A stretch of 64,000 nt of DNA from Clostridia bacterium (GTDB lineage Bacteria; Bacillota; Clostridia; Oscillospirales; Acutalibacteraceae). A model generated the notes under the pieces. The model saw nothing but the letters and a program-made list of their open reading frames with translations. It was not told the origin of the DNA and made no database searches. Both the position numbers and the translations under genes were made by a program. Below are positions 465-4,477 of the stretch, piece by piece; positions within the stretch are counted from its first letter, which is position 1, and every line of letters starts with the position of its first letter. The DNA is taken from assembly GCA_017409475.1 (NCBI GenBank), contig JAFQSP010000001.1, positions 1-64,000 on the forward strand, read 5' to 3'.

Positions 465-1531
465 TTATGCTGGCAAAGCTTTTGGTATATACGAAACCGC
501 CACACCTTGTCTTGTATCCTTGGTTAAAGGCCTTGTGAAGGCACTTTCAGGGATTTCTATATAACCTACGAATCGGTAGAATATCACAATTCGTTGGGTT
601 TTGTATTTTCCTTCGCCTTCGGTTTCGTGAACTTCAATATGGTCAATTAGTTCCCGAATTAGCGGTGCCGTGATGGTTTTCATCTCCATAAATCGCTGAA
701 TTGCCGATATAAACATATCTTTATGAAAAACCTTCTTGTCCAATTCGTTGAGTCTCATTTTGAGATTTAAGATTTTCTTTTTGAGTTCGGCTTTCACATT
801 TTCGTATTTGTGGGATAGTTCCATAAAGAATGAATCTGTGACTTTACCCGACACATTGTCCTCATATAGCCGTTCATAAAGCACATCAATTTTATTGATT
901 CTTGCTTGGCTTTGCTCTATCGTGGACTTGGTGTGTTTCTGCTCGGTCAACATATCCTTATTAGTTTTATCGGCAAGGAGCTGAGCAAATCCATCTTGGT
1001 CATAGCGTAAGAAATCCGCAAGCAGTTGTAGCTCATAGGTTACTACTTTCTCAATCGCATCGGCTCTCACATAGTGTCTTGTTTGGCAGGTGCCTCTGTA
1101 ATCCTTAACGTAATTAGAACAACTGAAATAATGAATATCTTTATTCTTGGTGTTGATATGAAACCAAAGTTTGCTTTGCAGTCTGCACAATATAGCAAAT
1201 CGGCAAACATATTCTTGGGAATTTCTTTAGACTTTGGCGCTCTGCGTTTGGTAGTAGTTGTTAGTTTCTGAACTTGTTCAAAAGTTTCACGATCAATAAT
1301 TGGTTCGTGAACATCCTTAAAGACCATCCAATCCTCTTTTGGCTTGGGTATGCGTTTCTTTTTCTTAAAGGAGATGGAATAGCTTTTAAAGTTAATAACG
1401 TCACCGCAGTATTCTTGTTGTGAAAGAATCTTTGCAATACTTGTTTTACACCACTTATAAGGATTGGGTTGCTTTATCTTGCCACCTCGTGGAAGTCCTT
1501 TGGATTGCCAATAGGCCATTGGAATTAACAC
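465..1531 (-). pseudogene. Serine recombinase remnant, frameshifted and N-terminally deleted
   Basis: The remnant encodes the recombinase domain (LPRGG...SIAKILSQQEYCGDV) and zinc beta-ribbon (LLYCADCK) in one frame. The cysteine-rich continuation (HYFSCSNY), the helical linker and the C-terminal domain (VIFYRFVGYIEIPE) are in another frame. The switch is near 1170-1173, where restoring one A to an AAA run would give KAKLWFHINTKNKD and rejoin the protein. The N-terminal catalytic resolvase domain with its active-site serine is missing; sequence before about 1530 belongs to a ParB fragment. Large serine recombinases move integrative elements, and this copy cannot be active. Confidence 0.85.
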
Positions 1532-3334: not shown

Positions 3335-4261
3335 TTATTTATATGTTCCACAATTTTTACAGAAAGAATCATGTTTGTTGTTTTTTGTTTTGCAGTTTTT
3401 ACATGTCCAGCATTCAGTTTGATTTACAGGTGTTAAAGGACCTTTGAGTTGTTCGGGATTATCTTTGTCAATGAATTTCATTCCGCAATTCCAGCAAACA
3501 TCGGTTTTGTTGCTTTTTTTGCATTCAGGACAAATCCAGATATTTGGGTCATTGTAACTAGGATGGGTTTCTTTTTTATCCGTTTTATCTTTATTAGGAT
3601 CAGTAAAACTTGCTGCGCATTTAAAGCATACTGTTCTTCCGCTCGGTTGTTCAAAGCCGCACTCTGAACAAATAATCGTGTTTGCGTCTTTAACAGTATA
3701 TGTTGAGCTTTTTTGAGAATTGTCATCTTGTTTGGGTTTGTTTGTTTTGCTCGGTTGCGATTCTTTTTCCTTTTTATTTTCTGCTTTGTTATTTGAATTA
3801 CTTTCGGGTTGCACATAAACGTTTTTTGGCGGATTTGCCGCAGTGTAAAGTGCTACGTTTGCAGTGATTCTCGTATGCTGAACTATGCTTGCAAGGGAAG
3901 CAATCAGTAATGCGATTATATGATATGTACAGTATTCGATAAAACAATATAAAAGCCAGTCAAATATCCCCTCAACAACAACTTCGAATACAGATTTGAT
4001 TTCTATTCCGTGTTCTGCGGCGGCTGTTTTTATTTCGTTCATATCAATATTTAATTCTTTGAGTAATTGTGAAGCTTGAATACCGTTGGAAATAATTGAA
4101 ATTGTTCCTATAATTGCTAAAAATATACAAATCCGAAATCCCCAAGATTCTACTCTCTCACACCAATCCCAAAGGTTGTTTGTTACATCGTCAGTTTTGC
4201 AACAGTCTCTAAGATCGTTCGGGATTTTTTTGTCTGCATTCCCTGAAAACATGTTTGTCAT
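3335..4261 (-). CDS. Membrane protein with three zinc ribbons
   Basis: This 308-residue protein has no assigned function. Two hydrophobic segments (about 42-60 and 99-127) are followed by a charged, low-complexity linker (about 145-190) and three CxxC...CxxC ribbons: Cys198/201/212/215, 244/247/256/259 and 287/290/301/304. The ribbons most likely face the cytoplasm and could bind zinc and a nucleic acid or protein partner. Translation starts after GGAGGAG. Expression seems controlled by a leader of about 180 nt with a long hairpin and a terminator directly before the ribosome site. I see no obvious partner gene. Confidence 0.8.
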   Translation of the reverse strand: MTNMFSGNADKKIPNDLRDCCKTDDVTNNLWDWCERVESWGFRICIFLAIIGTISIISNGIQASQLLKELNIDMNEIKTAAAEHGIEIKSVFEVVVEGIFDWLLYCFIEYCTYHIIALLIASLASIVQHTRITANVALYTAANPPKNVYVQPESNSNNKAENKKEKESQPSKTNKPKQDDNSQKSSTYTVKDANTIICSECGFEQPSGRTVCFKCAASFTDPNKDKTDKKETHPSYNDPNIWICPECKKSNKTDVCWNCGMKFIDKDNPEQLKGPLTPVNQTECWTCKNCKTKNNKHDSFCKNCGTYK

Positions 4262-4280
4262 TTTTTAACTCCTCCATAAA

Positions 4281-4310
4281 ATAAAAAAGTGCGCAGCCGA
4301 AGCCACGCAC
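4281..4310 (-). terminator. Attenuator-like terminator inside the leader
   Basis: On the minus strand GTGCGTGGC-TTCG-GCTGCGCAC forms a 9-bp stem with a UUCG loop followed by TTTTTTATTTTAT. It ends about 10 nt before the ribosome-binding site of the zinc-ribbon gene and downstream of that gene's promoter, so readthrough must be regulated or only partial. Confidence 0.75.
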
Positions 4311-4333
4311 TGAAAAACGCATCGCTCCGATTG

Positions 4334-4444
4334 CTGCGACACAATTCCGACACACAGTACAAGTATGCAAGAAAGAGCATGCATTTTTACCAAAATAAAA
4401 ATACACACTTATACTGTGTCCAAAAATATTGAATTGTGTCGCAC
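4334..4444 (-). ncRNA. Structured 5' leader: long imperfect inverted repeat
   Basis: The arms GCGACACAATTC (4336-4347) and GAATTGTGTCGC (4431-4442) are perfect complements. Inside them ACACAGTA/TACTGTGT and AAGTGTG/CATACTT extend the pairing, so the whole segment folds into one long hairpin. The predicted transcription start (about 4442) is the first base of the outer stem. A smaller hairpin (ATCG-GAG-CGAT, about 4318-4331) and the attenuator-like terminator follow. I do not recognise it as a known riboswitch class. A small palindromic mobile element is the alternative. Confidence 0.6.
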
Positions 4445-4448
4445 AATT

Positions 4449-4477
4449 ATTATATCATATAATTTTTATAAATACAA
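4449..4477 (-). promoter_or_regulatory. Promoter for the leader and zinc-ribbon gene
   Basis: Minus-strand -35 TTGTAT, a 17-base spacer and -10 TATAAT place the start of transcription near 4442, about 180 nt before the start codon. Confidence 0.75.

Follow-up and report, generated by a model that had tools for sequence, protein, structure and literature searches.

The leader and the gene behind it

The window analysed here is a 64,000-nucleotide stretch of a Clostridia bacterium contig. On its minus strand, a long leader lies ahead of a zinc-ribbon gene whose ATG is at 4261. An intrinsic terminator is placed between the promoter and this start codon, as is expected of an attenuator, and a ribosome site is located between the terminator and the ATG. 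The following features were assigned, with the strands that may exchange partners designated A, B, C and D.

3335-4261, minus strand: gene behind the leader, encoding a 308-aa membrane protein with a double zinc ribbon
4449-4477, minus strand: promoter, with -35 TTGTAT at 4477-4472, a 17-nt spacer ending in TGA and -10 TATAAT at 4454-4449 (from sequence)
4431-4443, minus strand: 5' arm of P1, presumably the first RNA bases, the start being judged from the -10 (inverted repeat and covariation)
4427-4430, minus strand: conserved unpaired AAUA in the internal loop that separates P1 from the inner stem, with a presumed role (alignment consensus)
4404-4421, minus strand: 5' arm of the inner stem (fold and covariation)
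4396-4404, minus strand: strand 1, the 5' arm of P2, GUAUUUUUA, which runs on from the inner stem (covariation)
4374-4391, minus strand: strand 2 (A), GGUAAAAAUGCAUGCUCU, partner of strand 1 or strand 3 (both pairings covary)
4349-4367, minus strand: 3' arm of the inner stem (fold and covariation)
4335-4347, minus strand: 3' arm of P1 (inverted repeat and covariation)
4312-4329, minus strand: strand 3 (B), CGGAGCGAUGCGUUUUUC, partner of A or C (covariation and energies)
4298-4311, minus strand: strand 4 (C), the 5' arm of the terminator and the UUCG loop, partner of D or of UCGGAGC...AUGCG in B, the latter giving an antiterminator (covariation and energies)
4288-4297, minus strand: strand 5 (D), the 3' arm of the terminator (terminator sequence and covariation)
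4283-4288, minus strand: U-tract of the terminator (from sequence)

The first-pass annotation of this locus had described a consensus promoter. The -10 hexamer was indeed found to be perfect and extended (TGATATAAT), but this description is generous because the -35 TTGTAT agrees with TTGACA at just three of six positions. Judging from the position of the -10, the 5' end of the RNA should lie at 4443 or at most about two bases away. The perfect outer stem, previously given as 12 pairs, contains 13 (4431-4443 with 4335-4347), and the inner pairing blocks were recovered in the predicted fold of the leader. The UUCG-loop terminator was likewise present and occupies, with its U-tract, positions 4311-4283 (AGTGCGTGGC-TTCG-GCTGCGCACT). 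The leader strand was predicted to fold with -71.7 kcal/mol, which corresponds to z -7.2 against 200 dinucleotide shuffles, none of which was as good.

Homologues of the zinc-ribbon gene had been proposed as the anchor of a search for related leaders. This anchor failed, as the 59 other relatives searched yielded no homologue (E up to 1e-5); among solved structures, no relative was found at E up to 0.01. The zinc-ribbon gene is thus not the conserved partner of the leader RNA. Elsewhere in the window (465-1531, minus strand), a recombinase-like gene was observed in two overlapping frames, one with DUF4368 and a recombinase zinc ribbon and the other with a Recombinase domain. This gene is apparently broken and is a possible remnant of a mobile element.

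Distribution and genomic context of the leader RNA

A BLAST search with the leader uncovered another home-genome copy. Across the home genome and 39 relatives it gave 26 matches, 15 of which were accepted as real by inspection and 11 of which (17-31 nt) were dropped. A covariance model was built on 14 of the 15 copies; L018 was omitted because of a long insert. With seven to nine candidates scored per genome, so that the tallies are lower bounds, the model gave hits in 143 of the 394 order genomes searched (E up to 0.01), in 100 of 391 genomes of the class (E up to 0.001; this set overlaps the order set) and in one of 299 genomes of the phylum (E up to 0.0001), namely the home genome. When 150 candidates were scored, each of twelve chosen genomes had 3 to 30 matches (E up to 0.001), weak matches and at least one antisense match included; the home genome had three. 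A single weak match was found in G563, a single-contig genome. A pattern scan of the named genomes yielded at least 120 stretches. Among the 80 matches listed, nearly all record titles referred to MAGs of Oscillospiraceae, Ruminococcaceae, Clostridia, Ruminococcus, Ruminiclostridium, Monoglobus and similar groups, and many sources were guts of deer, goat, sheep, cattle and rabbit. Because the leader recurs across many genomes with compensatory changes, it is beyond chance.

Plasmid records gave no match to the leader RNA. Copies were found in two unannotated human faecal records among the phage records, both labelled Bacteriophage sp., and one pattern match in viral contigs scored as a leader copy. 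One of the faecal copies lies at 2076-2235 of MT835845.1 (L301), where the surrounding ORFs look chromosomal by inspection, and this contig may be mislabelled. The leader is therefore not interpreted as a phage element.

The distance between the promoter and the first stem was nearly fixed. For 103 of the 104 copies of the order set, 60 nt of upstream sequence were available. A -10 was found in 102 of these; it was of the extended type (TGn) in 98, and its end lay precisely 5 nt ahead of P1 in 95. A -35 with four of six matches was present in 76. In the stretch from -60 to -31, the mean gapless identity between these copies was 0.34, with a 99th percentile of 0.57.

A scorable gene with a ribosome site was located behind 95 of 104 copies, and in 76 of these 95 a start codon with a ribosome site followed within 40 nt of the end of the match. 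According to a simple hydropathy rule, 58 of the 95 downstream proteins look exported; 22 were lipoprotein-like, 36 had a signal-peptide-like N-terminus, 14 had other membrane segments and 23 had none of these. A CxxC...CxxC motif was present in 12 of the proteins, and all three home-genome genes behind leaders encode Cys-rich proteins. The 95 proteins matched 74 Pfam families. Among the 25 families listed, BspA-type leucine-rich repeats were matched by 17 proteins, AMP-binding and HTH_3 by 4 each, CHAP by 3 and each of three zinc-ribbon models by 3. Inspection of the scored genes in genomes G680 and G646 showed that most encode either a protein whose start resembles a signal peptide or a small zinc-ribbon protein.

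Some short proteins recurred behind the leaders. Zinc-ribbon proteins of 79 aa were observed at L283:332-568 (plus strand) and at L267, L270 and L289; the one that was scanned gave MazE/MraZ-like matches below their cut-offs. Proteins of 48-54 aa with the common start PDYK.MYL.LFNSVTDAIEIL were observed at L070:3534-3695 (minus strand) and L066:2377-2523 (plus strand). The L070 protein had no Pfam match at E up to 0.01.

The occurrence at many unrelated loci per genome, before genes of so many families and in tandem, would also be expected of a mobile promoter-palindrome cassette that lands before genes by happenstance. Recurrence as a mobile palindrome had been named in advance as an outcome that would overturn the first interpretation. 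The RNA does recur at unrelated loci, as a unit of promoter, RNA and terminator that usually lies just before a start codon. However, the three home copies are just 73-81% identical to one another over aligned bases, the stretch from -60 to -31 is unlike between copies, the alternative pairings are kept by compensatory changes and the copies are mostly placed before start codons. The origin of this distribution in a mobile cassette is thus considered very improbable.

At several loci, two or three copies were found with starts about 225-335 nt apart. The following arrays were recorded.

L210:1682-2372, plus strand: tandem array of three copies, each with its own promoter and terminator
L197:1203-2047, minus strand: tandem array of three copies, each with its own promoter and terminator
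L066:1876-2356, plus strand: tandem array of two copies, each with its own promoter and terminator
L227:4659-5096, plus strand: tandem array of two copies, each with its own promoter and terminator

At L066, the first copy is followed by an apparent broken duplicate of the start of the next gene. Furthermore, the rule applied assigned no gene to 18 of 48 matches inspected. Of these 18, one lies in antisense orientation, some open a tandem pair, and at least two (L260 and L275) have an ATG overlooked by the rule. Since there are tandem copies and copies with no scored gene, a function of the short transcript in its own right is conceivable. The product would then be the terminated RNA, a stable trans-acting small RNA of about 160 nt, and the downstream gene would be expressed by read-through. 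The arrays with a promoter and a terminator for each copy, the gene-less matches (some of them explained or due to the rule) and the 13-bp stem at the start of the RNA agree with such a product, whereas the position of 76 of the 95 scorable order-set copies within 40 nt of a start codon with a ribosome site, and a covarying B:C antiterminator for which a free small RNA has no obvious use, do not. A small RNA as the main product is therefore regarded as improbable, and control of the adjacent gene in cis is the preferred interpretation.

Covariation of the alternative pairings

To compare copies, an alignment of 112 matches was reduced by 6 antisense and 2 duplicate rows to 104 copies. In a strand-swap test, the duplex energy of the strands of each copy was compared with that of strands exchanged between copies in 2000 permutations. 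The copies' own strands paired better for P1 (z -18.2), C:D (z -15.8), P2 (z -15.1), A:B (z -13.5) and B:C (z -5.4), and in each case none of the 2000 permutations was as good. Ten other strand combinations served as controls; nine of them had |z| of at most 2.1. The tenth, the 5' arm of P1 with C, is outside the model and had z -2.2 (29 of 2000 permutations as good). A second set of 43 further distinct copies was drawn mostly from genomes G680 and G646 and contained the third home copy. In this set, A:B (z -9.7) and B:C (z -9.0) were again unmatched in 2000 permutations, the covariation of P2 was weaker (z -5.3) and the 5' arm of P1 with C had z -2.7 (6 of 2000). On visual inspection, some copies (L018, L019 and L002) have a weak or rearranged P2. 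The strands of the third home copy differ from those of the window copy, yet A:B, B:C and C:D can all be formed by eye.

Covariation was also computed between all columns, without structure input, for 202 dereplicated sequences (Neff 101). Among the best 70 column pairs were base pairs of P1, the terminator, P2, the inner stem and A:B, alongside some couplings of another kind, and the A:B pair 61-125 ranked fifth of all column pairs. B:C (register 261) had the highest summed score among the 13 diagonals listed; its best single pairs ranked within the top 0.6% of all column pairs but outside the best 70. The test of B is conservative because 98 of the 202 sequences came from loci found via a pattern that fixes part of B. 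Such statistics are inflated by related sequences; the control strand pairs argue against relatedness as the cause of the signal.

Strand A is common to P2 and A:B, strand B to A:B and B:C, and strand C to B:C and C:D. Therefore, the RNA can hold either P2 with B:C or A:B with C:D, hereafter the ON and OFF structures. It follows from the shared strands that A:B excludes P2 and B:C and that B:C excludes C:D. Pairs were counted for both structures on alignment A2, which has 110 distinct rows, including 6 antisense rows, and was fitted to P1, P2 and the terminator, though not to A:B or B:C. In the ON structure, 92.8% of cells were paired and 248 were changed on both sides (73 in shuffles and at most 93 in slid controls). 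In the OFF structure, which as counted contains a 4-pair hairpin UUGU/GCAA that is not claimed, the corresponding values were 96.5% and 141 (30 and at most 45). Although this hairpin (100-103 with 110-113) covaries, it was not retained in the OFF state because just 5 of 202 sequences have its best pair in reversed form. A U-A-U triple helix between the two U5 tracts and A5 was also rejected, as strand exchange appears simpler given that the flanks pair antiparallel with both partners.

On the basis of covariation, the helices P1, inner stem, P2, A:B, B:C and C:D are considered established, and an arrangement of five strands in two exclusive sets of pairs is supported. The exclusive antiterminator B:C is conserved by covariation, as is expected of an attenuator. 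The covariation check that the first-pass annotation had named beforehand thus gave compensatory changes across the family copies. The antiterminator that it had suggested, CTGCGCAC with GTGTCGCAG (the 3' arms of P1 and of the terminator), is a different one. This duplex can form in the window copy but is not conserved in the family: in the 104 copies the own strands were no better than swapped ones (z -0.6, 540 of 2000 permutations as good), and in the 43 further copies they were marginally better (z -2.2, 33 of 2000). The small hairpin noted before the terminator falls within strand B, for which the supported partners are strand A and the 5' arm of the terminator. The earlier interpretation is thus partly supported, being right in kind and wrong in the detail of the antiterminator.

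Classical leader-peptide attenuation was considered as an alternative. Within strand A, an ATG is present in 90 of the 202 copies and a GTG in 37. However, judging from the eight commonest words listed, at least 72 of the 202 have neither at that position, and control by translation of a leader peptide is considered very unlikely.

Proposed switch and comparison with known systems

The energies of the terminator and antiterminator were compared in the 202 copies under soft constraints. On average the antiterminator was favoured, with a difference of -1.8 kcal/mol (sd 4.8). The two were within 3 kcal/mol of each other in 135 copies; the antiterminator was more stable in 118, and the terminator was better by more than 3 kcal/mol in 18. 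After removal of the terminator pairs, the best fold held at least 6 B:C pairs in 191 of 202 copies, and when the RNA was cut before D this was the case in 190 of 201. For the window copy, the ON fold was the predicted minimum (-66.9 kcal/mol). A fully nested OFF fold, in which P1 is broken, had -46.9 kcal/mol and was 20 kcal/mol less stable; therefore, the OFF state would be reached via a pseudoknot that keeps P1, via kinetics or with help. Probably, the OFF state keeps P1 as a pseudoknot, with GCUCU of A as the toehold for GGAGC of B.

In the proposed switch, the 5' half of the RNA would form an extended hairpin, composed of P1, the internal loop, the inner stem and P2, in which strand A is held. 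While A is kept in this hairpin, B would be free to pair with C, the 5' arm of the terminator, and read-through would turn the gene ON. If B captured A, the terminator C:D would form just before the ribosome site and the gene would be OFF. The state of the switch would depend on a signal by which the 5' hairpin is either stabilised or opened, and a small-molecule ligand is the first guess. The consensus contains conserved, though not invariant, unpaired bases, namely AAUA after P1, GG in the P2 loop and a U-rich stretch after GCUCU. Because these bases sit in the 5' hairpin, the sensor was placed there; as a guess, binding would keep the gene ON. We infer that the exclusive folds act as a switch, that an intact 5' hairpin corresponds to ON and that there is a signal of the suggested kind.

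The same switch might be operated not by a small molecule but by a trans-acting RNA-binding protein, either an antiterminator or a terminator-promoting factor. Up to 30 matches per genome before unrelated genes are what a global regulator would produce, and both the conserved AAUA and the U-rich sequence that follows GCUCU could serve as protein sites. The sole candidate examined was LoaP, which exceeded the NCBIfam cut-off in one of 50 genomes, and this genome was among the 25 in which no RNA match was seen. LoaP was rejected as the trans factor because it was over the cut-off in none of the 25 RNA-rich genomes. A protein-operated switch is rated as rather unlikely.

Taken together, these findings make it likely that the leader belongs to a large class of transcription attenuators that act in cis, have two exclusive folds and are apparently uncatalogued; the class is probably riboswitch-like. 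The switch architecture itself is held with high confidence. Given this architecture, a small molecule has about an even chance of being the signal; a protein or other trans factor is a distinctly weaker candidate, and any other kind of signal is weaker still. More tentatively, and with somewhat less than an even chance, the RNA may represent a riboswitch class that is new, occurs in gut Clostridia in as many as 30 copies per genome, and in which a five-strand bistable switch responds to one common metabolite or signal, the orphan and surface genes form one regulon and the 5' end is set by a stem-locked promoter. If this is true, many genes of gut Clostridia, which are mostly uncultured, would obey one RNA-sensed signal, among them surface, lipoprotein and orphan genes; this signal could be found by in-line probing, and genes beyond the reach of homology annotation would gain a function. 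Some 30 copies of a single attenuator within one genome would constitute a striking RNA regulon.

The first-pass annotation had assigned the layout of a riboswitch or attenuator to the leader and matched it to no known class. This assignment is borne out by the strong covariation and by Rfam 15, in which no family reached its gathering score over the leader in the window or at 20 loci. In the window stretch, 28 matches were obtained at E up to 10, all well below the gathering score, and the best ones on the leader's own strand were microRNA models (E 0.6 to 1.8). At 14 loci searched at E up to 5, nothing over the leaders reached the gathering score. In genome G680, a drum RNA (RF02958) scored above its gathering score at L263:1444-1564 (plus strand), about 1.2 kb from the leader copy at L263:113-288 and without overlap with it. 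In the literature consulted, which included PMC8040213, PMC11109978, PMC8632094 and PMC6429828, no description of the leader RNA was found. PMC8040213 reports 3161 candidates, among which the leader RNA could be.

Several known systems resemble the leader in part. The predicted read-through of its terminator resembles that in the LoaP-dependent antitermination leaders of Firmicutes; the leader differs in that LoaP was below the cut-off in 25 of 25 RNA-rich genomes. Attenuators of the trp/his type and T-boxes consist of a chain of alternative pairings that ends in an intrinsic terminator, and the leader is built in the same manner. However, its one candidate leader-peptide start is not conserved, and the T-box was absent from the Rfam searches of the leaders. 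Riboswitches for c-di-GMP occur in multiple copies per Clostridia genome ahead of genes for surface and secreted proteins. The leader is similar in copy number, gene context and host group, whereas the c-di-GMP family was absent from the Rfam searches of the leaders and its architecture is different. Transcription-terminating riboswitches in general have a conserved 5' domain, an exclusive antiterminator and terminator and a U-tract just ahead of the ribosome site. The leader stands apart from them in having no Rfam 15 family at threshold over it, very diverse genes and a nearly fixed promoter spacing, but it has the same succession of a 5' domain, an exclusive antiterminator and terminator and a U-tract before the ribosome site.
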